From contig NZ_WVID01000015.1 in NCBI RefSeq assembly GCF_010091925.1, forward strand, positions 124,001 through 188,000: a DNA stretch of 64,000 bases. Direction: 5' to 3'. The stretch is from Nostoc sp. B(2019). GTDB taxonomy: Bacteria; Cyanobacteriota; Cyanobacteriia; Cyanobacteriales; Nostocaceae. Under the pieces are notes generated by a model that searched no databases, was not told the DNA's origin, and saw nothing but the letters and a program-made list of their open reading frames with translations. Positions 1 through 62,433 of this stretch are shown piece by piece; the first letter of the stretch is position 1; each line of letters begins with the position of its first letter. The translations under genes were made by a program, and so were the position numbers.

Positions 1-210
1 GCATCTCCCTTTTTTCGCCTGCAAGGGTCTGGGAGACTTAGTTGGACAAGCCATTACACATTGCGGTTCTGGATAATAACCCTCGCAATTGTTACACAGA
101 AAAGGGTCGATCCAATATTCATCGTTTTCTAGTTTGATTGCACCCGTAGGACATTGGGGACGGCAATTGTCACATCCAACGCAACTGTTGTTAGGAATTG
201 TATAAGGCAT
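1..210 (-). CDS. cnfR: Nif transcriptional activator CnfR/PatB, N-terminal part (cut by window edge)
   Basis: The minus strand opens with ATG at 208-210 and reads 70 codons without a stop to the window edge. The peptide begins MPYTIPNNSCVGCDNC and carries two 4Fe-4S-type cysteine clusters (CVGCDNCRPQC and CNNCEGYYPEPQCVMAC). CnfR (PatB in Anabaena) has a ferredoxin-like N-terminus followed by a C-terminal helix-turn-helix region, and in Anabaena sp. PCC 7120 patB lies beside a small ferredoxin gene and the cox2 operon, exactly the neighbours here. The FeS domain is thought to sense low O2, and the protein activates nif genes. The helix-turn-helix part lies outside the window, so a stand-alone bacterial ferredoxin is the alternative. 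Confidence 0.75.
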   Translation of the reverse strand, partial: MPYTIPNNSCVGCDNCRPQCPTGAIKLENDEYWIDPFLCNNCEGYYPEPQCVMACPTKSPRPLQAKKGRC

Positions 211-2275: not shown

Positions 2276-3259
2276 ATGCAACAAATTCCTGTTTCATTAT
2301 GGACTCTGATTGCTGGGATAGTAGTTACAGCAATTAGCATTTGGATTGGTCAAAATCACACCCTACTACCAGTACAAGCATCGCTACAAGCGCCTTTGGT
2401 AGACGGATTTTTCAATATCATGTTTACCATTGCGATCGCTCTGTTTTTGGTGGTAGAAGGAACCATTGTGGTTTTTTTGATTAAGTTTCGTCGCCGCCAA
2501 GGAGACGATACCGATGGTGCGCCAATTGAAGGCAATTTGCCCTTAGAAGTTTTTTGGACAGCAATTCCAACATTGATTGTGCTGGCCTTGGGCATTTACA
2601 GTGTAGATGTTTTTAACCGAATGGGAGGCTTTGAGCCTGCGGGTCATCCTCATTCCTCAGCTCATATTGCTCATACGCCAGGTAGCGCTCTTGCGGCTAC
2701 TTTAAATGACACCTCTGAAGCAACAACTGCTCCAACAATTGGCATCGGTGCATCTCCCACAACCCAAGGTAAACAAGCCGACTTGGTTGTTGATGTCAAA
2801 GGGATACAGTACGCTTGGATATTTAACTATCCCGATAGTGGGATTACCTCTGGGGAATTGCACGTTCCCGTCGGTGCTGATGTCCAACTCAATCTTTCAG
2901 CACAGGATGTGATTCACTCATTTTGGGTTCCAAACTTCCGGCTGAAGCAAGATGCGCTTCCCGGTATCCCTACTGAACTCCGATTTGTCGCTACTAGACC
3001 AGGTACATACCCTGTGGTGTGTGCTGAACTATGCGGTGGTTATCACGGCTCAATGCGGACACAGGTAGTTGTCCACACGCCGGAAGCTTATGATAGCTGG
3101 CGGACAGAAAACCAGATTGCTCAAAAGCAAGACTTACATCAAGTTGTTGCGGTTAATCCTGCTGACTTATCTACATCAGCGTTTCTTGCTCCTCATATCC
3201 ATGATATGGGGATTAGTACAGTAACTCTAGAGTCAATGGTTAAGAGGAGCCAGCGCTGA
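2276..3259 (+). CDS. ctaC: Cytochrome c oxidase subunit II (heterocyst-type cox operon)
   Basis: This 327-residue protein is subunit II of an aa3-type cytochrome oxidase. It has an N-terminal hydrophobic segment (residues ~8-30), a second membrane helix (~45-70) and a periplasmic/lumenal cupredoxin domain. The CuA ligands are visible in the C-terminal part as a histidine in IHSFWVPNF and the cluster CAELCGGYHGSM. The position just after cnfR-fdxB suggests the orthologue of the Anabaena cox2 operon, which is induced in heterocysts and helps lower O2 around nitrogenase. Two ATGs lie at 2272 and 2276; only 2276 is in frame. Subunit I follows 108 bp downstream. Confidence 0.93.
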   Translation: MQQIPVSLWTLIAGIVVTAISIWIGQNHTLLPVQASLQAPLVDGFFNIMFTIAIALFLVVEGTIVVFLIKFRRRQGDDTDGAPIEGNLPLEVFWTAIPTLIVLALGIYSVDVFNRMGGFEPAGHPHSSAHIAHTPGSALAATLNDTSEATTAPTIGIGASPTTQGKQADLVVDVKGIQYAWIFNYPDSGITSGELHVPVGADVQLNLSAQDVIHSFWVPNFRLKQDALPGIPTELRFVATRPGTYPVVCAELCGGYHGSMRTQVVVHTPEAYDSWRTENQIAQKQDLHQVVAVNPADLSTSAFLAPHIHDMGISTVTLESMVKRSQR

Positions 3260-3260
3260 A

Positions 3261-3290
3261 GGAGGGTTTCCCTCCGTAGGCGACTGGCGT
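3261..3290. repeat. Small palindromic repeat (GGAGGG-TTT-CCCTCC type)
   Basis: A 6-bp perfect stem with a TTT loop (3261-3275) is followed by CGTAGGCGACTGGCG. A second copy of the same layout, GGGGG-TTT-CCCCC followed by ATAAGTAACTGGCGAAC, is at 10051-10080. This looks like a dispersed Nostoc repeat; here it lies in the ctaC-ctaD gap. Confidence 0.6.
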
Positions 3291-3367
3291 TCATTAGTCA
3301 AGAGTCAAGAGTCAAATTTAATTACTTTGGACATTTGACCCTGGACTTTGCGTAGCGGTGAAAAAAT

Positions 3368-5056
3368 ATGACAAAAGTAGAATTTCCACGAAATACGCCA
3401 CCAGAAGGGAAAAAGCCGGAATTGGTGGTTGCTCACGCCTCCCATCCCAAAGCGTGGAAATGGCAGGATTACTTTACATTTAATGTTGACCACAAGGTTA
3501 TTGGTATTCAATACCTCGTGACGGCGTTTGTGTTTTATTTAATCGGTGGATTGATGGCGATCGCTATTCGCGCCGAGTTAGCAACACCAGATGCAGACTT
3601 GCTCGACCCCAATATGTATAACGCTTTCATGACGAATCACGGGACAATCATGATTTTCCTGTGGATTGTTCCGAGTGCGATTGGGGGATTTGGCAACTAT
3701 CTAGTGCCGTTGATGGTTGGCGCTAGGGATATGGCTTTCCCGAAGCTGAACGCGATCGCCTTTTGGTTAAACCCACCAGCAGGGGCGCTAATTTTAGGTA
3801 GTTTCATCTTCGGCGGTTCACAATCTGGTTGGACAGCTTACCCACCCTTGAGCTTGGTGACAGCACCCATTGCTCAAACAATGTGGATACTTGCGATCGT
3901 TTTGGTGGGAACTTCTTCAATTTTGGGTTCACTGAACTTTGTGATCACCATTTTGATGATGAAGGTTCCTAGCATGAAATGGGATCAAGTACCCTTGTTC
4001 TGCTGGGCAATCTTAGCAACCTCTATTCTGGCGCTACTCTCCACACCTGTATTAGCAGCGGGTTTAATTCTGCTGTTATTTGACCTCAACTTTGGCACAT
4101 CCTTTTTTAAACCAGATGCCGGCGGTAACGTTGTTATCTACCAGCATTTATTCTGGTTCTATTCTCACCCAGCAGTATATTTAATGATTCTGCCCATCTT
4201 CGGCATTATGTCCGAGGTGATTCCAGTTCATGCCCGTAAGCCGATTTTTGGTTATAAAGCGATCGCTTATTCTAGTGTGGCAATCTGCGTTGTGGGTTTG
4301 TTCGTCTGGGTACACCACATGTTTACCAGCGGTACACCCGGTTGGATGCGGATGTTCTTCACTATCTCTACCTTGATTGTTGCCGTTCCCACTGGCGTCA
4401 AGATTTTTGGCTGGGTTGCCACTCTCTGGGGTGGTAAAATCCGCTTCACCAGCGCCATGCTTTTCGCCATTGGCTTGTTGTCCATGTTTGTCATGGGCGG
4501 CTTAAGTGGTGTGACGATGGGAACAGCCCCCTTTGATATTCACGTCCACGACACCTATTATGTAGTAGGACATTTTCACTACGTCCTGTTTGGCGGTTCC
4601 GTGTTTGGCATTTATGCCGGCATTTACCACTGGTTCCCCAAAATTACCGGACGGATGATGAATGAAGCTTGGGGTAGGGTTCACTTTGTGCTTACTTTCA
4701 TCGGCACTAACCTGACTTTCTTACCCATGCACGAGTTGGGTTTGCAAGGAATGCCCCGACGCGTAGCTATGTACGACCCCCAATTTATCGACCTCAATCA
4801 GCTTTGTACCTTTGGTTCATTTGTCTTGGGGATATCGGTAATTCCTTTCGCCATCAACATTCTCTACAGTTGGAGCAAAGGCAAACCTGCGGGCGATAAT
4901 CCTTGGCAAGCTTTGACTTTAGAATGGACAACTAGCTCACCACCCGCCATTGAAAACTGGGAAGTGTTGCCCGTTGTCACTCACGGCCCTTATGACTATG
5001 GTCATGGTTACAGTAATGAAGTACAGCCATCTGCAACGCCAGAAGCTAGTGCTTAG
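3368..5056 (+). CDS. ctaD: Cytochrome c oxidase subunit I
   Basis: This 562-residue polytopic membrane protein is the catalytic heme-copper subunit. Conserved stretches of the family are visible: MTNHGTIMIFLWIVPSAIGG around residue 87, HLFWFYSHPAVYLMILP (heme a3/CuB region) around residue 257, VWVHHMFTSGTPGWM (CuB histidine pair) around residue 314 and HVHDTYYVVGHFHYVL (heme histidines) around residue 390. It reduces O2 to water using electrons from cytochrome c or plastocyanin. It lies between subunits II and III in the same direction. The length is normal for the family and there is no interruption. Confidence 0.96.
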   Translation: MTKVEFPRNTPPEGKKPELVVAHASHPKAWKWQDYFTFNVDHKVIGIQYLVTAFVFYLIGGLMAIAIRAELATPDADLLDPNMYNAFMTNHGTIMIFLWIVPSAIGGFGNYLVPLMVGARDMAFPKLNAIAFWLNPPAGALILGSFIFGGSQSGWTAYPPLSLVTAPIAQTMWILAIVLVGTSSILGSLNFVITILMMKVPSMKWDQVPLFCWAILATSILALLSTPVLAAGLILLLFDLNFGTSFFKPDAGGNVVIYQHLFWFYSHPAVYLMILPIFGIMSEVIPVHARKPIFGYKAIAYSSVAICVVGLFVWVHHMFTSGTPGWMRMFFTISTLIVAVPTGVKIFGWVATLWGGKIRFTSAMLFAIGLLSMFVMGGLSGVTMGTAPFDIHVHDTYYVVGHFHYVLFGGSVFGIYAGIYHWFPKITGRMMNEAWGRVHFVLTFIGTNLTFLPMHELGLQGMPRRVAMYDPQFIDLNQLCTFGSFVLGISVIPFAINILYSWSKGKPAGDNPWQALTLEWTTSSPPAIENWEVLPVVTHGPYDYGHGYSNEVQPSATPEASA

Positions 5057-5108
5057 TTAGTAGAGTAAGTACTGTTATTCCTGTTGGGACTGCAACTTCT
5101 ATTCATTT

Positions 5109-5255
5109 GAGTTCTGAACACGAAAGACCGAGTTCTGAACACAAAAGACCGAGTTCCGAACACGAAAGACCGAGTTCCGAACACGAAAGACCGAGTTCCG
5201 AACACAAAAGACCGAGTTCTGAACACGAAAGACCGAGTTCCGAACACGAAACTCG
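5109..5255. repeat. 21-bp tandem repeat, seven units, between ctaD and ctaE
   Basis: Seven consecutive 21-bp units of the form GAGTTCYGAACACRAAAGACC occupy 5109-5255; units differ by single C/T or G/A changes, and the last diverges at its end (CACGAAACTCG). Since 21 is divisible by three, open frames run through the array on both strands, which explains spurious small open frames there; I see no reason to call a gene. It lies inside the cox operon, so it will be part of any readthrough transcript. Confidence 0.9.
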
Positions 5256-5523
5256 GAATTTTGAGAACTCCTTAACAAGTGAAGAGTTGAGTTAAATTGC
5301 AATCTTGCATTAGTCCCAACAACCGCCTGAGAATAAATTCTCAGGCTAATAGCGAAAGTCTTCTAAACAAGACTGAGTTTAGATTTTAGTCCACTTGAGT
5401 AGAGTTAGGCTATTAGCGCAGTTAAGTTTTGGGCGGGTGAAGAATAAAATTTTGCCGCTTCACACTTGAGCCTTGATTCAAGCTTTCACTACAGACACAG
5501 CGGATAGTATTGTCAATAAATCT

Positions 5524-6123
5524 ATGACTATAGCTACAACGACGAACGAACATGACAGTGCAGGACACGAAGAACATCCAGATTTAAGAGTCTGGGGACT
5601 GTTGACGTTCCTCGCTTCTGAATCCCTGATGTTTGGTGGCTTTTTTGCCACTTATTTGTTCTTTCGAGGTATGACAGATGTTTGGCCTCCCGAAGGAACT
5701 GAAGTAGAGCTTTTGTTACCAACGATTAACACCATCATTCTGGTGTCGAGTAGTTTCGTCATTCACTTCGGTGATGTGGCAATTAAAAAGAATGACGTCA
5801 AAGGAATGCAGTTTTGGTATGCAATTACTGCAATCATGGGCGCAATTTTCTTGCTTGGTCAGGCTTATGAGTATTCAACTTTGGGATATGGTCTGACTAC
5901 CAACGTATTCGCCAACTGCTTTTATATCATGACTGGGTTCCACGGCTTGCACGTATTTGTGGGACTGTTATTGATTTTAGGTGTGTTGTGGCGATCGCGT
6001 CGTCCCGGTACTTATTCTGCAACCAATCATACTTTCATCGAAATGGCAGAAATTTACTGGCACTTCGTAGATATTATCTGGATTGTTCTGTTTACCTTAG
6101 TGTATATTCTCACGCTGTTTTAA
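5524..6123 (+). CDS. ctaE: Cytochrome c oxidase subunit III
   Basis: This protein of 199 residues is subunit III of the oxidase, a helical membrane protein without redox cofactors that stabilises subunit I. The family text is visible: HPDLRVWGLLTFLASESLMF, then ATYLFFRGM, YWHFVDIIWIVLFTLVYIL at the C-terminus and ITGFHGLHVFVGL-like text (MTGFHGLHVFVGLLL) around residue 140. I chose ATG 5524; an in-frame TTG at 5473 would add 17 residues. The gap to ctaD (467 bp including the tandem array) is larger than usual for this operon. Confidence 0.92.
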   Translation: MTIATTTNEHDSAGHEEHPDLRVWGLLTFLASESLMFGGFFATYLFFRGMTDVWPPEGTEVELLLPTINTIILVSSSFVIHFGDVAIKKNDVKGMQFWYAITAIMGAIFLLGQAYEYSTLGYGLTTNVFANCFYIMTGFHGLHVFVGLLLILGVLWRSRRPGTYSATNHTFIEMAEIYWHFVDIIWIVLFTLVYILTLF

Positions 6124-6220
6124 ATTGGGAATTGGGCATTGGGAAAAGGGAGGAATTACTCTTTTGCCCCCCTGCCCCTTTGCCCCTCTGCTCCCCTGCT
6201 CCCCTGCTCCCCAAAGAATT

Positions 6221-6706
6221 ATGCAAGTTGATGCAAATCGCTTCTCATGGTTTCAGGTTCCTGATGATATTAAAGAGTTACTTGTATTAGCAGCACAAAC
6301 TTGGGAAAATACATCAGAATCCGAAAAATATATTCAACAAGCTTTAGCCAAAACTGGTGATAATACAGAGGTTTTGGTAGCAGCATATAGATTTTTCTAC
6401 TATAAAAATAATTATATACTTGCACTACAAACAACAATCAAATTAATAGATAAAATTAAAGAAGCAGAAAATCTTCCTGATGATTGGTCAAGACTTAAGC
6501 CGCTATTAATCAAGCGGCGAGAAGAACCCCAAATCAGATTGTACTTAAATGCTTATGCTGCTTCTGGATTGGTTTTAGCAAAATTAGGAGAAATAGACCA
6601 AGCCAAAGAAATAAGTACCAGAGTCAAGGAAATTGATGCCAAAAATGATTTTGGAGCAGGCATACTTCTGGATATTTTGACACGTCCGCCAGAAGAAGAC
6701 GATTAA
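6221..6706 (+). CDS. Small helical TPR-like protein of the cox/nif-associated cluster, function unknown
   Basis: This 161-residue protein starts MQVDANRFSWF at ATG 6221, about 97 bp after ctaE; the preceding sequence is a CCCCTGCT-type low-complexity tract, so a longer start in that tract is unlikely. It is predicted all-helical, with paired-helix text resembling tetratricopeptide repeats (YIQQALAKTGDNTEVLVAAYRF, split here as two helices; LYLNAYAASGLVLAKLGEID; QAKEISTRVKEIDAKNDFG) and an acidic tail (PPEEDD). No catalytic motif is visible. Its location between cox and nif-accessory genes suggests a role in heterocyst metabolism or assembly, which is inference only. Confidence 0.7.
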   Translation: MQVDANRFSWFQVPDDIKELLVLAAQTWENTSESEKYIQQALAKTGDNTEVLVAAYRFFYYKNNYILALQTTIKLIDKIKEAENLPDDWSRLKPLLIKRREEPQIRLYLNAYAASGLVLAKLGEIDQAKEISTRVKEIDAKNDFGAGILLDILTRPPEEDD

Positions 6707-8206: not shown

Positions 8207-9166
8207 TCAACGGACGCCAACAGGTTCTAGAGTCAAGTCTTGAAACATGGGGGTGCTGAGATAACGCTCACCAAAGGAAGGCTGAATGAGCACGATTAAA
8301 CGACCGGCATTTTCTGGACGTTTACCGACTTGAATGGCGGCACACAAAGCCGCACCAGAGGATATACCAGATAATAATCCTTCTTCTTTTGCCAGTCGTC
8401 GCCCATAAGCGATCGCCTGTTCATCGCTGACTCTAATTACTTCATCAACCAGTTCTAGACGCAGAACATCTGGGACGAATCCAGCACCAATACCTTGGAT
8501 TTTATGTGGCCCGGCTTCACCACCAGAGAGAACTGGACTGTTGCTGGGTTCAACTGCGATCGCCTGAAAACTCTGCTTACGCCCTTTAAGTATCTCTGCA
8601 ATCCCAGTAATTGTTCCACCAGTACCTACCCCAGCAATAACGATATCCACTTCTCCATCTGTATCAGCCCAAATTTCTTCTGCGGTGGTTTCCCGGTGAA
8701 CTTTAGGATTAGCTGGGTTGCGGAACTGTTGCAGCATATAAGCATTGGGAGTGTTCGCTACAATTTCTTCGGCTTTGCGAATTGCTCCCCGCATCCCTTC
8801 AGTACCAGGTGTTAACTCTAAAGCTGCACCATAGGCTCTGAGCATAGCTCGTCGTTCTTGGCTCATCGTCTCTGGCATAGTCAAAATCAAACGGTAGCCA
8901 CGCGCCGCTGCTACCATCGCTAAAGCAATCCCGGTATTACCAGAGGTCGGCTCTACTAAAATTGTCTTTCCAGGCTCAATAAAACCTTCTGCTTCTGCTG
9001 AGAGTACCATACTCAACCCAATACGGTCTTTCACTGAAGCAGCTGGGTTCATCCCTTCTAGTTTGACAACTATTCTCGCTACTACTCCCTCAGCTTGAGG
9101 AATTTTATTTAGCTGAACTAAAGGAGTTCTTCCAATAAGTTCTGTTACGTCTTTAGCAATTCTCAT
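8207..9166 (-). CDS. cysK: Cysteine synthase A (O-acetylserine sulfhydrylase)
   Basis: This 319-residue PLP enzyme makes cysteine from O-acetylserine and sulfide. The PLP lysine lies in [11 protein letters not shown] (around residue 46), the substrate loop in [11 protein letters not shown], and the phosphate-binding glycine loop in [10 protein letters not shown]. The length is usual for CysK. It is convergent with the NifO-type gene and transcribed away from the large regulatory region 9167-10256. A dedicated cysteine supply fits the high FeS demand of the heterocyst. Chromosomes of this group carry several CysK paralogues, so this may be the diazotrophic one; that is inference. Confidence 0.92.
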
Positions 9167-10256
9167 TAATTCACCCCTAGAATTCTCAATTTAGTGCCGA
9201 GTATTTACTTATACAATAATATTTTGTTTGTTTAATTTGCAGTTTATTACAAGTTAGTGCATCAACTATAGATTTTAACTAAACTACAAAATCTAGAAGT
9301 TTAAGAGGAACTTTTGTGAGATGTTTCCATTCATTTTGTTCCAGTCTGTGTTTCACTCGCCGTACTGATATTTTACCATTGCATTGCTTAACATCGCCTT
9401 TCGCACTCAGATTAGCTCGCTGAGCCTACTGCTTACTTACCAAGGATTGAAGACAACCTGGATTATATGCAAAACTTTTGGCACTATATTCTAAGAATTT
9501 TTATTTGTCATAGAAACGTGAATTAATTTGGCAAATTTAATTGTTTTTTCTTGTTATTGCATATATATTTACCAAGAGATACAGGCATCTTTTTTGAGTA
9601 CAAGTTTTAGCCACAAAATAATTAGATAAAAAACAGTCCTGCACTAGTTCCTGTAATGCTTTGAGTTGAGTACTTCAAACGCCAGAACCCTACTTCCTAA
9701 ATACTAGAACCCCAACCCAAAAATACTAGCACCCATGCCCCAATGATTTTTTAAAAGGCTTATCAGGTGCGAATTGTAGGCTTTGAGTACTGTTCTAATG
9801 AATTTAATAATCTTAATTCGACTCAGCTAAACTGTTATGTGGAGAGGGGACTGATATAAAACGTATAGGATTTACGCAGAGATTCCCCTCTACCCCCCGA
9901 AATTCCTAGGCGAAAGCTTAGTGAACGAGGGGGGACTTCTTAATCCCTCTTTTAACAGTAGGAGAAACCACATTCCTGTATCCTCATAGTTCTACTTTTG
10001 TGAGAAAGTTGGTAATTTATCCGTGGTTAGTAGTGAGCCAGTGCGGTCTTGGGGGTTTCCCCCATAAGTAACTGGCGAACCCGAAGGGTCAGTGCTAATT
10101 AGAGAAATAACTGACAACTAACAATTTTAAGAATTACCGTTTACACATATCTTTAGTATCAGAACTGTTTGAGAAGTACATACAGATAGCTACTTAGATA
10201 AATTGCAAAACATATTTTCTTACTGGGTGCATACTACCTAGCAAGTGAGAGCCGAG
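9167..10256. other. Long divergent intergenic region between cysK and the unknown gene at 10257
   Basis: No gene is seen in 1.09 kb. It holds the nifB-like module (9593-9795, listed separately), a purine/pyrimidine repeat around 9885-9945 (CCCCTCTACCCCCCGAAATT ... AACGAGGGGGGACTT), and a palindromic repeat copy GGGGG-TTT-CCCCC at 10051-10063. Confidence 0.6.
9593..9795 (+). promoter_or_regulatory. nifB-like promoter module (candidate CnfR-responsive cis elements)
   Basis: This stretch aligns by eye over its full length with the minus strand upstream of nifB (61690-61910). Shared blocks in order: TTTGAGTACAA (GTAC at 9598), TTGAGT..TGAGTAC (GTAC at 9670), a run of GAACCC/ACCC motifs (CCTAAATACTAGAACCCCAA at 9695-9714, then AAAAATACTAGCACCC), and TTGTAGGCTTTGAGTAC (GTAC at 9787). 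Box spacings are 72 and 117 bp here and 71 and 127 bp at nifB. In the nifB orientation the downstream gene here is the membrane protein at 10257, about 460 bp away. CnfR is known to act on nif genes through multiple cis elements; that these are such elements is inference. cysK diverges from the other side and may share it. Confidence 0.65.
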
Positions 10257-10673
10257 ATGAGAGCCAAACTTTTAAATGTTCTTACAGTTTGCGTAGTTAC
10301 TTTAGTGGTGCTTTCTCCAGAACTAGTAGTATTTGGTGTAGTTTGGGAGCGGCATATAAACTTAGTAGAAATCCAGAATTTAACCTGCAAACTTAACAAG
10401 AGTAGTACCTGGACTCCTCAGCCAAATGGTACACATTTCTCTCAATCTCAAGCTAGTACAAAATCCTCTGACCACAATGTGGTTAATCAAATGCTGACTG
10501 TTGCTGAGCAATATAAACTTGCCACTATTCTGCAATGGTTTTTCGTTTTGACCCCTATTTGTGTTGGGTTAGGGATTATTTTTTATGACAGGTATCTTTT
10601 TTACCGTGCTGCTGTTTTAAAAGAACAAGTCGCAATGTTGGAAAGGCTCTGGCAGCAAAGTATCGAGCAGTAA
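10257..10673 (+). CDS. Unknown protein with two membrane segments, behind a nifB-like promoter
   Basis: This 138-residue protein has a hydrophobic helix near the N-terminus (LLNVLTVCVVTLVVLSPELV) and another near residue 97-117 (ILQWFFVLTPICVGLGIIFY), separated by a polar loop of about 65 residues with two cysteines at most. The C-terminus is a short charged helix (AAVLKEQVAMLERLWQQS). An in-frame GTG lies at 10245; I prefer ATG 10257. I do not recognise the family. The upstream module shared with nifB suggests expression under nitrogen-fixing conditions. Two further small genes follow in the same direction (52 bp and 2 bp gaps). Confidence 0.6.
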   Translation: MRAKLLNVLTVCVVTLVVLSPELVVFGVVWERHINLVEIQNLTCKLNKSSTWTPQPNGTHFSQSQASTKSSDHNVVNQMLTVAEQYKLATILQWFFVLTPICVGLGIIFYDRYLFYRAAVLKEQVAMLERLWQQSIEQ

Positions 10674-10724
10674 TTAATCACCGAAGTTTTGACTTAAACT
10701 CATACCAAAATCAACAAATTTACC

Positions 10725-11006
10725 ATGACAGAACAACGCCAACATTTGTATTTTAATCTGATTGATGAGTTACTCAAATGTCCTAATGGTCAAGAACCAG
10801 AAATTTTGGAATCTAAGCCAGAATTGATTGATTCTGGTTTAGTTGAGACAATGTTACAAGTAGCGGCTATGTTCGCTCATGAAGGTAATCAAGATGGCGC
10901 TCAATTTTTATTTTTTGTAGGGCGTGAACTAGCTAAACAGCTAGGATTGTATCCTGAAGTTCCTGAAGTTTCCACTGACGTTTCTGAAGTCTCTAATAAG
11001 GAGTAA
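10725..11006 (+). CDS. Small helical protein resembling the N-terminal domain of cyanobacterial TPR/CHAT proteins
   Basis: This 93-residue protein reads MTEQRQHLYFNLIDELLKCP..GLVETMLQVAAMFAHEGNQDGA. The pattern (NLI-x-x-LL-x-CPNG, then GLVxTMxxVAxxxAxxGxxxxAxFL) is familiar as the N-terminal segment of large cyanobacterial TPR or CHAT-domain proteins; here it stands alone. The C-terminus is a short acidic repeat of E-V/S units (EVPEVSTDVSEVSNKE). Function unknown. Its stop is followed two bases later by the next start, so the two are probably co-translated. Confidence 0.6.
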   Translation: MTEQRQHLYFNLIDELLKCPNGQEPEILESKPELIDSGLVETMLQVAAMFAHEGNQDGAQFLFFVGRELAKQLGLYPEVPEVSTDVSEVSNKE

Positions 11007-11008
11007 AA

Positions 11009-11320
11009 ATGTTATTGACTTCAACTGATGCAGGGCAAATAGCGTTAGAGCTTCTCATGGCAGATTGGAACATCTCAGAAGAGAATAGAGAGTGGTTCAC
11101 AATCTTTAACTCTCGTCTAATTGGTGAAAGCTGGTACATCGTAGAATTGGGTGTAGAAGGATTTCCAGATAGGTGGTTTATTCAAGTCTATGACAATGGA
11201 GTGTGTGACCCCAACTATACATTTATTTCACCAATTCGTGGTTCCGAAGGTTTTTTGGATTTTGTAAATGTGCCAGATATCGTAGCAGAAGTTTTAGTTT
11301 CAGAACGCAATGCTCGATAA
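11009..11320 (+). CDS. Small acidic protein of unknown function
   Basis: This 103-residue soluble protein begins MLLTSTDAGQIALELL two bases after the preceding gene, whose end supplies the Shine-Dalgarno text (AAGGAGT). It contains a compact alpha-beta stretch with aromatic residues (WYIVELGVEGFPDRWFIQVYDNG). No catalytic motif is visible and I do not recognise the family. It is the last gene of the putative three-gene unit behind the nifB-like module; a GTAGGGTGGGCATTGTAATGCCCACCC hairpin follows at about 11368-11395 (given here in words: arms GGTGGGCATT and AATGCCCACC). Confidence 0.6.
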   Translation: MLLTSTDAGQIALELLMADWNISEENREWFTIFNSRLIGESWYIVELGVEGFPDRWFIQVYDNGVCDPNYTFISPIRGSEGFLDFVNVPDIVAEVLVSERNAR

Positions 11321-11368
11321 TAACAATTAAAAGTTCAAAATTTAGAATCACCGCTCTTTGTTGCTTGT

Positions 11369-11395
11369 AGGGTGGGCATTGTAATGCCCACCCTA
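11369..11395 (+). terminator. Strong hairpin after the unknown three-gene unit
   Basis: Arms GTAGGGTGGGCATT and AATGCCCACCCTAC pair perfectly across a short G or no loop around 11368-11396. There is no T-run immediately after (AGTAGTATTTAATATTTTATTT), so it is either a weak terminator or a dispersed palindrome; this GGGTGGGCATT motif is a common cyanobacterial intergenic repeat. Confidence 0.5.
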
Positions 11396-11479
11396 CAGTA
11401 GTATTTAATATTTTATTTAAGATAAATGGGTTGATTTGTCATACTTAAATGACAAAATTATGTTATATTAAATAGCGTG

Positions 11480-59853: not shown

Positions 59854-61308
59854 CTATTCCTTAGCTCCTAGTCCTTCTACGTATTGCTCGTAAAACTCCA
59901 AAGCAACCTTTTCAATTACGTCGTAAGCTTCAATAGTCTGTATGCCAGCTTCTTGCAATTTTTCTTGGGGACAGTTACCAATCTTGGAAACCAAAACTGC
60001 TTTGCAATCTGCGATCGCTTCCATAATATGCTCAAAAGTGGCTTCCTCACCGTATCCACCTTGACAATACTGGTCAATCTTGCGATGACTGACAAAGCGA
60101 ACTTCGTTGCCGTCCACTTCGTAAATTTGGAATTCTTTAGCATGACCGAAGTGCTGGTTAACCAATCCGCCGCCTTTGGTTGCTACTGCAACTAGCACTT
60201 TAGGATTGTTAGCAAATTTCTTGCCTGTGCGTGCCTTTTCTTTGGCTACTTTAAGTTCTTCTTTAAACTTCTCAATACCTTGGTGTACTTCTTGACGCTT
60301 TTCGAGGTCATATTCTGGGGACATTTCCAAGAATTTATCTTTGCTAAATTCCTGGCTGCGATCTTCTCCCAACAATCCGACTGCATCGGCTCGGCACTGA
60401 CGGCAATGGCGCATCATTTTCATGTTGCCAGAGCAATTGTCTTGAATTTCCTTGAGTTCCTTAGTTGAAGGGCCGCGCTGACCGCTTAAGCCGAAGTGTG
60501 TACCATGTTCCGGTGCAGAAATCAGCGGCATGATGTTGTGCAAAAATGCCCCATTCTCACGAATGAATTTATTCACTTCCACCAAATGCTGGTCATTAAT
60601 TCCCGGAATCATCACCGAGTTGACTTTGCACAAGATGTCTGCTTCTTTTAAGGCTTGCAATCCTTCCATCTGCTTTTCGAGCAGAATCTTGGCTCCTTCA
60701 ACGCCTCTATAACGCTTGCGTTTGTAGTGAACCCAAGAATAAATCTGTGCGCCGATTTCTGGGTCGATGGTGTTTAGGGTAATCGTAACGTGATCTATAT
60801 TTAATTGTTTAATGCGATCGATGTATTCGGTCAGCATTAAACCATTGGTTGATAGACAAAGCTTGATATCCGGTGCTTTGTCTGCAATCAACTCAAATGT
60901 GCGGAAAGTCTTTTCTGGATTTGCCAATGGGTCGCCAGGGCCGGCAATTCCCACAACTGTCATTTGGGGAATCTTGCCTGCAATCACCAAAGCTTTGTGT
61001 GCTGCTTCTTCTGGTGTTAATAACTCGCTAACCACTCCAGGGCGACTTTCGTTAGCGCAGTCATATTTACGATTACAGTAGTTGCATTGAATGTTACAGG
61101 CTGGAGCAACTGCAACGTGCATCCGGGCGTAGTGGTGATGGGCATCTTCGCTGTAGCAGGGATGTTTAGCAATACGTTCTTGGAGCTTTTCATCCCTTTC
61201 CACGGTGGCGCTGCTGGTGCTGTCGCAGCCGCAACCACCTGATTTTGCTGGGGTTGTCGTCGATTCCGTAGCGGGGGAGGTGAGGAGTCGTGTAGACGGT
61301 GATGTCAT
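59854..61308 (-). CDS. nifB: FeMo-cofactor biosynthesis radical SAM protein NifB
   Basis: The 484-residue protein has the radical-SAM motif [14 protein letters not shown] (around residue 76 with this start), family text [30 protein letters not shown] and a C-terminal NifX-like domain ([20 protein letters not shown]). It makes the 8Fe core NifB-co. An N-terminal Ser/Thr-rich stretch holds [11 protein letters not shown] chose ATG 61308 ([12 protein letters not shown]); GTG 61344 would add 12 residues, and no strong ribosome site decides between them. Confidence 0.95.
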
Positions 61309-62433
61309 TGAATTTCGCAAAAGGTCGGTGGACTTGGCTGCCACTGTGGGAGATGCCGTTGCTATTGTTTATGCCTAGGAATTGAAGCCGCGTCTTATAC
61401 CCGCACTGCCTACTAGAGTAAAGATGCCTGATGAGGGCGGCTGATTACATAGTAGGGCAGGCGATAAAATCATTGAGGTTCGGCTGGTGTGTGTCAACGG
61501 TTGGGCTTTGGGTAGAACTATGTGTGTATAGCCGCGACTTCCATTCACTTCAGGCATGGTGCTATCTCATCCCTCCACTCACTTTTCGCTTTTGGTGTTT
61601 GCCAGAGCGTTAAGTGATTGGCGATATAAGATTTATATCAGCCGTTCCCAAGGTTGGTGATATGTCTATCTAGGATAGAATTTATTGGATTTATTAACTT
61701 TGTACTCAAAATCTACAACCCTGATTATTAGGGCATTAAATGAGTTGAAAAAGTTTTTTTCGGGTAGGGGTTCTAGTGTTTTTTGGTTGGGGTTCGAGTA
61801 TTTATGGAGAGGGGTTCAGGATTTCTTTGTACTCAGTTGTAACTCAAGATTAGCAAGGAATTCGGCTTACTTCGACCTGGTTTTGGGACATCTAAATTTG
61901 TACTCAAACCCTCCTTAAACCCCGTTTAAAGCGATAACTGCCAAGGGATTTAAGGGGGAAAAACTGGAGTAGGCTACGTCGTGCTACTCCAGACACGTGC
62001 GAAATTCAATTCTGTATCTAACATATCATTTTTTTTAAAGAAAAAATGCAATTCATATTTTCTTAATTTTTGTCTTGATAATGATATTAAATTGCGCTGA
62101 TAAGTCTTATTTCATAAGGCATATAAACTCCTCCGAAGAAATGACTTAATGCATAATTTTTGCAACTAATCTAATTCTAAACCTTTTTCTTCTCTTTGTT
62201 TTCTGCTAGCGATGAGTAAAATAATCTATAGTTCATAACATATAGATTAGGACATTGTGAAAGCGTGAATGTCAGGTACAGTAATACTTTTACCTCTTAC
62301 CTCTGCCTCCTGCTATAACTGGGGAATTGAATGCATTCAGGCACAATTTATTATTGCATCAAGCTTCTCCCTGAACAGCAAAGGAGGTCGAGGCGTTCTG
62401 CTTCGGTAAATGTTTCTTAGAAAACGGAAGTTT
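61309..62433. other. nifB upstream region
   Basis: About 1.1 kb without a supported gene. The nifB-proximal part (61309-61680) is a long leader. The GAGTAC/GAACCC module (61690-61910) is listed separately. Further upstream, 61980-62430 is AT-rich with no structure recognised. Confidence 0.6.
61690..61910 (-). promoter_or_regulatory. nifB promoter module with GAGTAC boxes (candidate CnfR cis elements)
   Basis: Read on the minus strand toward nifB: TTTGAGTACAAATTT (plus GTACTCAAA at 61900), CTTGAGTTACAAC-TGAGTAC (GTACTCA at 61829), three GAACCCC units in about 60 bp (e.g. CCATAAATACTCGAACCCCA), and TTGTAGATTTTGAGTAC (GTACTCAAA at 61702). It is about 390 bp upstream of the nifB start. The same blocks in the same order occur at 9593-9795. 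CnfR is reported to use multiple cis elements upstream of nifB in a non-heterocystous cyanobacterium; assignment here is inference. Confidence 0.65.

Follow-up and report, generated by a model that had tools for sequence, protein, structure and literature searches.

A putative third CnfR-type nif promoter and an invariant leader precede the alr2522-asr2523-alr2524 operon in heterocyst-forming cyanobacteria

A promoter whose architecture is conserved throughout a cyanobacterial family, and which is restricted to three promoters of its own genome, lies at positions 9596-9860 of the window (the whole 64,000-nucleotide stretch of Nostoc DNA that was analysed) and is followed by an invariant leader. 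Probably it represents, beside those of nifB and nifP, a third complete nif promoter of the CnfR type, from which the leader and a three-gene operon would be transcribed. CnfR is the master switch of cyanobacterial nif clusters, and it is proposed as the binder at 9596-9790 by analogy with the nifB and nifP promoters. The leader is the novel part and is absent from the initial annotation of this DNA, while the promoter is a further example of the CnfR-type nif promoters. From the names of its genomes, the family appears to consist of heterocyst formers. The features discussed are collected in Table 1.

Table 1 Positions of the promoter, the leader, the operon and their surroundings in the window.
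Feature	Position	Strand	Remarks
cnfR (patB), 5' end	1..210	-	full gene C16:122624-124210, presumably cnfR (patB), no model naming it; 4Fe-4S ferredoxin-like N end, HTH-like C end
coxB2-coxA2-coxC2	2276..6123	+	cytochrome c oxidase genes
cysK	8207..9166	-	divergent neighbour; probably not a target
Box 1	9596..9601	+	GAGTAC, within TTTGAGTACA; mean conservation of 9594-9603 is 0.90 (93 distinct promoter sequences)
Box 2	9668..9673	+	GAGTAC; 72 bp past box 1
Three repeats	9683..9734	+	(C/T)NG(A/C)ACCC; starts 9683, 9705, 9727; 22-bp steps
Box 3 and AT-rich element	9785..9819	+	GAGTAC (9785-9790), then TAATGAATTTAATAATCTTAAT (9791-9819); 117 bp past box 2
Extended -10	9852..9860	+	TGATATAAA; 67 bp from box 3
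Invariant leader	9867..9945	+	about 80 nt: AGGATTTACGCAGAGATTCCCCTCTA, CCCCCC/GGGGGG stem with variable apical hairpin, CTTCTTA
alr2522 orthologue	10257..10673	+	138 aa; two long helices (weak model, pLDDT 66); name from gene order and papers
asr2523 orthologue	10725..11006	+	93 aa
alr2524 orthologue	11009..11320	+	103 aa; compact alpha/beta model (pLDDT 89)
Terminator-like hairpin	11365..11398	+	3' of third gene; weak, shuffles give 1.1 such sites
nifB	59854..61344	-	NCBIfam TIGR01290, 673 bits
nifB module copy	61632..61905	-	boxes 61905, 61834, 61707; repeats 61819, 61797, 61775; extended -10 61640-61632, 67 bp from box 3

The three boxes of each copy in the window stand where the initial annotation had placed them, and the spacings it gave, 72 and 117 bp at 9.6 kb and 71 and 127 bp upstream of nifB, were found again. 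The triple GAGTAC pattern has two matches in the window and none in 100 shuffles. The described module of about 200 bp (9593-9795) is real, but it extends further, through the AT-rich element to the extended -10. Similarly, the two copies have the boxes, the three ACCC repeats at 22-bp steps and the 3' end in common, but the claim that they align along their whole length was too wide at the level of bases, where the BLAST match covers 62 bp. Repeat 1 begins 15 bp past box 2 in both the operon and the nifB copy, and the 10 extra bp of the latter sit between the last repeat and box 3. A sigma-70 scan called no hexamer pair ending at the extended -10; it did call pairs that overlap boxes 1 and 3 (9594-9622 and 9783-9811). 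The mean conservation around box 3 is 0.85 in the 93 distinct promoter sequences. Directly upstream of box 1 an AT-rich, fairly conserved stretch (9543-9576) has several columns at or above 0.9, and it could be part of the cysK side.

A BLAST search with 9593-9795 in its own genome (E at most 0.001) gave, apart from the query, a single match, to the nifB copy, at 81% over 62 bp with E 2.6e-9. To call the module duplicated is correct for the window but too narrow for the genome, since a third copy is found beyond the window at C16:194431. This site lies upstream of a serine acetyltransferase gene (cysE model), a small gene and a homocitrate-synthase-like frame; by eye we take the frame to be nifV and the site to be the nifP promoter. 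A pattern of box 3 and the AT element has three matches in the genome, at the operon, nifB and nifP, and none in the reversed control. The pattern of box 3 and the -10 has a fourth match at C33:41357 and one match in the reversed control. The match at C33:41357 was rejected as a promoter and taken as chance because the AT element is absent, despite the recurrence of such a match in three genomes of the same genus (G001, G003 and G004).

For nifB, the extended -10 predicts approximately 281 nucleotides from the transcription start to the GTG at 61344. The nifB start has been mapped at -282, upstream of the start codon, in Anabaena sp. PCC 7120 (PMC3141674) and 296 upstream of the start codon in Nodularia (PMC3610870). 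The same rule would place the start of the operon transcript at about 9867, at AGGATTTACG. Within the nifB leader (about 61550-61585, minus strand) a conserved motif, GAGTGGAGGGATGAGATAGCACCATGCC or nearly so, is present in most of 22 nifB loci at a variable distance past the -10. The genome also carries a second nifH at C27:61280, and in many family genomes the nifH matches break off near codon 141, which is what elements inserted in nif genes would produce.

The 203-bp query matches 30 of 60 genomes, its own included. Among the 36 family genomes, 33 carry alr2522 and 34 carry alr2524, and in 32 of these 33, from 28 genera, the module precedes alr2522 (29 by the exact pattern and three, G014, G018 and G031, with GAGTGC). 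It is clear that box order, on which the initial annotation had staked its reading, is kept before the operon across the family together with the spacing and the -10, and the reading thus came through. It is practically negligible, therefore, that the promoter boxes are alike by chance: GAGTAC alone is common, but the triple pattern is absent from the shuffles, and the orthologous sites in 28 genera already refute such a coincidence. In G034, the exception among the 33, box 3 has decayed, but box 2 and the repeats persist, as do the -10 and the leader. In G024 (locus L194, 1926-2000) the leader survives and carries a terminator-like tail, GGGGGGGCTTCTTTTT; box 3 there reads AAGTAC, a decayed form, and alr2522 was not found although asr2523 and alr2524 are present. 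In a second set, the best 80 of 178 loci from named genomes, alr2522 is present in 79, and three boxes (up to two mismatches allowed per box) and the -10 in 76 of these 79. The exceptions are L163, without a good box 2, L152, without a good box 3, and L111, with box 3, -10 and leader only. At L111 (about 6070-6512, Nostoc sp. CHAB 5715) the upstream DNA with boxes 1 and 2 looks replaced and the three remaining parts are intact; it looks like a natural promoter truncation.

The spacing was compared at 106 operon loci (some genomes being represented twice), 22 nifB loci and nine nifP loci, from overlapping sets of genomes. Box 3 is 66-68 bp from the TG of the extended -10 in all 104 anchored operon loci, 66-67 bp in 22 of 22 nifB loci and 66-68 bp in nine of nine nifP loci, the anchor being sought within 63-70 bp and two of the 106 operon loci giving none. 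Boxes 1 and 2 of the operon are 69-74 bp apart in 96 of 101 loci and 81-82 bp in three, the values 43 and 60 being two probable mis-picks, and boxes 2 and 3 are 115-118 bp apart in 98 of 102, 126 bp in three and 145 bp in one. All 22 nifB loci have 71-75 bp between boxes 1 and 2, followed by 126-128 bp in 20 and 116 bp in two between boxes 2 and 3. The corresponding distances at the nine nifP loci are 73-75 or 83-84 bp and 116-120 or 128-129 bp. At the operon 66 of 101 loci have two successive 22-bp steps between the repeats (22,22), as do 15 of 22 nifB loci; the same search gave two repeats 22-23 bp apart at eight of the nine nifP loci and none at the ninth. Since the spacing values cluster about one helical turn apart, they would fit a protein array lying on one face of the DNA.

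Some of the distribution counts against the proposed reading: outside the family, alr2524 is missing from 23 of 26 nifH-bearing genomes. The alr2524 carriers outside the family, G149, G186 and G213 in a 292-genome sample of the phylum (all three above the nifH cut-off) and G053 among the relatives, have neither leader nor module. Also against the reading, the family genome G027 has nifB and nifP and no operon.

Several features of the promoter are those of known CnfR targets. In Leptolyngbya the nifB and nifP promoters are driven by CnfR (PMC5943405). The CnfR-dependent promoters of A. variabilis nifB1/nifB2 (CS1, CS2 and CS3) and of Leptolyngbya boryana nifB and nifP have three conserved upstream sites, a number that the three boxes of the present promoter match; they also have an extended -10 without a -35, as found here (PMC8510180). 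The spacing agrees with that of the own-genome nifB promoter to within one helical turn, and the genome also has cnfR. The operon promoter differs from that of nifB in driving no nif gene, in the distance from box 2 to box 3 (117 bp, against 127 bp at nifB), and in the added invariant leader. The proposal that both copies in the window are nifB-type promoters is thus borne out as far as it concerns the architecture, which is that of the nifB and nifP promoters in both, and the part concerning CnfR is suggested by this likeness.

Expression data from Anabaena sp. PCC 7120, where alr2522, asr2523 and alr2524 are the same genes in the same order, connect the operon with heterocysts or nitrogen fixation, their function being reported as unknown. 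Expression of the patB-alr2524 region has risen strongly by 21 h after nitrogen step-down (PMC3141674), alr2522 is listed as “up” in a heterocyst-specific table (PMC4365693), alr2522-alr2527 are fourfold down and nifB sixfold down in a cse mutant (PMC7065334), and asr2523 co-occurs with nitrogen-fixation genes (PMC5862535). In a sigE mutant asr2523 and alr2524 are down at 8 h, along with nifU, nifZ and nifV1 (PMC4390870), a drop that precedes the rise of the nif genes. This early drop, and the fact that the reported CnfR dependence concerns nif genes, could be taken to mean that the nif-type promoter is served here by an activator other than CnfR, e.g. another regulator with SigE or SigC reading the same boxes, with CnfR acting at nifB and nifP only. 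We regard this as distinctly improbable. All parts and the spacing to the -10 are common to nifB, nifP and the operon, and because nifU, nifZ and nifV1 fall as well, the sigE result does not separate the operon from the nif genes. In the portions of the literature searched, which may not cover subscription papers, we found neither CnfR binding nor cnfR-mutant data on the operon, nor a link drawn between alr2522-alr2524 of strain 7120 and the nifB promoter architecture or a leader.

The order of genes in the window is cnfR, ferredoxin, coxBAC, alr2517-like, cupin, nitrogenase-associated protein, cysK and three small genes, which is the order of all2512-alr2524 in Anabaena 7120. These numbers agree with a table in PMC2821919. 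The 9.6-kb copy is oriented toward 10257, as had been claimed, whereas the suggested divergent control of cysK finds no support. There is a conserved -10 on the alr2522 side only and none mirrored toward cysK, and Cylindrospermum NIES-4074 (L125) has the module, leader and operon without cysK in the fetched DNA, which makes cysK an unlikely target. The divergent cysK is nevertheless kept in 73 of the 75 named-genome loci with at least 2.5 kb upstream (among the best 80 of 178), which leaves some room for an effect on it.

What had been called one gene of unknown function at 10257-11320 consists of three genes. The alr2522-type protein has no Pfam or NCBIfam family above cut-off, the asr2523-type protein of the window has no Pfam family, and the alr2524-type protein has no solved relative by sequence. 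The structure model of alr2522 was dismissed as a functional clue because its pLDDT of 66 is too weak. Small alr2522-like proteins outside the family, in G046 (L201) and G039 (L202), adjoin a gene that by eye resembles MFS transporters, without a module, which may mean that this protein family extends beyond the operon. In G007 (L216, 2542-3384) a second cnfR, 65% identical, faces a variant of the module and an alr2522 paralogue. This variant lacks box 1, has box 2, the repeats and box 3, and has its -10 at 41 bp instead of 67 bp; the frame of the paralogue overlaps coxB, identified by NCBIfam and belonging to a coxBAC set in which coxA and coxC were recognised by eye, and no nif genes were recognised by eye in the fetched flanks. 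In the named genomes, coxB2 is found in the fetched DNA of 37 of the 64 loci with at least 8.5 kb upstream (among the best 80 of 178). Together, the overlap with coxB in G007 and the nearness of coxB2 suggest that the operon might help the respiratory oxidase by which oxygen is kept low in heterocysts. This is a guess, and one that we lean against. The same holds for the wider guess that the operon contributes to respiration, or to the removal of oxygen, around nitrogenase, with the leader tuning its expression in cis.

The first 26 nucleotides of the leader show no change at any of the 106 loci, which have 60 distinct leaders among them. In the 93 distinct promoter sequences the mean conservation of 9867-9898 is 0.999, compared with 0.58 directly downstream of the leader. 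The loop between the C6 and G6 runs is 28-31 nt in 99 of the 106 loci and 7-13 nt in the other seven. The exact 22-nt head occurs once per genome in 34 of the 36 family genomes, from 30 genera, and in no other of the 60 genomes; G027 and G028, the family genomes without it, are also without the operon. Among 292 genomes of the phylum, a covariance model with strict filters, for which E-values are rough, detects the leader in 32, which are all the family members of the sample, and has a second weak match in G169 (E 0.007). By the head search in 60 genomes and the covariance model in 292, full leaders are found only before this operon. The nifB and nifP transcripts lack the leader, so that it is not part of the CnfR signal and CnfR does not need it. 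Rfam 15 gave three matches below the gathering score, none on the leader, and no antisense partner within the window was found other than the leader itself. Weak second copies with two to three mismatches in G000-G003 were set aside as chance because they are inside a 678-aa frame, presumably a DNA ligase. A possible pairing between the leader (CCCUCUAC) and the conserved leader of nifB (GUGGAGGG), comprising eight pairs by eye with one G-U, has a rough chance expectation of once in five and is therefore not claimed.

It is rather unlikely that the stretch is a separate trans-acting heterocyst RNA of about 75 nt, for which transcription would often stop at the CCCCCC/GGGGGG hairpin and otherwise continue into the operon. 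Its invariant CU-rich 5' part and the hairpin followed by a U-rich stretch have the look of a small RNA, as does the tail GGGGGGGCTTCTTTTT in G024, where alr2522 was not found. However, the tail is CTTCTTA, without a T run, in 45 aligned loci, the hairpin was not called as a terminator in the window, and at L027 no more than about 21 nt separate it from the start codon, as would suit a leader acting in cis; the restriction of full leaders to this operon points the same way.

The leader has the potential to fold into a branched RNA. Within the 87-column class (26 sequences), three of the possible helices, TAGGA/TTCTTA, AGAG/CUCU and C6/G6, are invariant and for that reason give no information on covariation. 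The apical helix has two-sided change in six of nine pairs, with 13 pair types. Its cells with two-sided change number 24 compared with 9.1 ± 2.3 in shuffles, and its covariation score is 0.142 compared with 0.088 ± 0.008 in shuffles and 0.013-0.051 when the helix is slid; neither value was reached in 500 shuffles, whereas the pair count of six was reached in 144 of 500 and the 13 pair types in 37 of 500. Folds of single sequences are moderate (z = -1.3 to -2.9), and the leader of the window folds best with another outer helix. One helix thus covaries by some of these measures, which gives an RNA structure partial support, and the leader may function at the level of RNA. Nitrogen-stress RNAs with homologues in heterocyst formers only have been described in strain 7120 as NsiR8 and NsiR9; they resemble the leader, which likewise belongs to a family of heterocyst formers, and differ from it in genomic position, mapping at 4547556r and 4451847f (PMC4734099). 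Judging from its gene number, alr2522 of 7120 should lie within 2.47-3.37 Mb, an interval in which no candidate was found in the available part of the PMC4734099 table.

Sequences resembling the leader were also found as dispersed repeats outside the family. In G056 (L223-L227) 12 places match the repeat head GGACTTACGCAGAGATCCCCC with up to three mismatches, and five near matches open with AGGACTTACGCAGAGATCCCCC or a close variant of it, leading to C-run/G-run palindromes that have ACTT at their end; G036 (L229) has weaker dispersed look-alikes with the same head and C/G palindrome. The head of this repeat is off the leader head by two of 21 bases and is likewise followed by a C-run/G-run palindrome with ACTT. 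The repeat is variable and occupies many places per genome, whereas the leader occurs once, at a constant position and without change, and the leader model gives 19-25 bits on five look-alike loci compared with 57-76 for the leaders of G024 and G034. Family genomes have few other places resembling the leader or its head (up to three mismatches), and the genome of the window has a handful of related palindromes. No description of the dispersed repeat was found in the literature searched. From this sequence likeness, it appears likely that the leader derives from an old dispersed palindromic repeat that was caught at the promoter and then held fixed.

The same look-alikes could mean that the invariant stretch is only a relic, or a palindromic repeat at the transcript start kept for its DNA (as initially transcribed region or protein site) and not for an RNA, which the three helices without covariation would also allow. 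We think this unlikely. A relic would hardly keep 26 nt identical at one place in 30 genera while other intergenic DNA drifts, and the nifB and nifP promoters do without the element. Both arms persist while the loop between them varies in length, and the scarcity of near matches in family genomes also argues against a relic or DNA element.

Taken as a leader transcribed from a CnfR-type promoter, the arrangement suggests the following course of events. In maturing heterocysts CnfR, whose gene starts at window position 210, would bind the GAGTAC boxes, three in number, together with the repeats at 22-bp steps as an array lying on one helix face, and RNA polymerase would be recruited to the extended -10 without a -35. 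The transcript from about 9867 would begin with the invariant leader of about 80 nt, foldable as a branched RNA, and would then encode the three small proteins of alr2522-asr2523-alr2524. A more far-reaching proposal is that the leader represents a new class of cis-acting regulatory RNA of heterocyst formers, recruited from a dispersed palindromic repeat, which by a branched fold resembling a riboswitch core, with fully conserved junction and loop bases, would sense the state of the nitrogen-fixing cell (a metabolite, a metal or redox) and gate a CnfR-driven respiration operon beside nitrogenase. As a whole this is speculative, and we do not expect it to hold.

A nif control region and a nearly unchanging RNA start before little-known genes point to an undescribed piece of nitrogen-fixation control. 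If CnfR directly controls the operon, three conserved genes of unknown function would join the nitrogen-fixation programme, which would bear on the choice of genes when nitrogenase is moved to other hosts. The rule set of three boxes, 22-bp-spaced repeats, 66-68 bp to an extended -10 and spacer changes of one helical turn provides a pattern for finding CnfR targets in heterocyst formers, and the leader may show a route by which a stray repeat becomes a fixed regulatory element.
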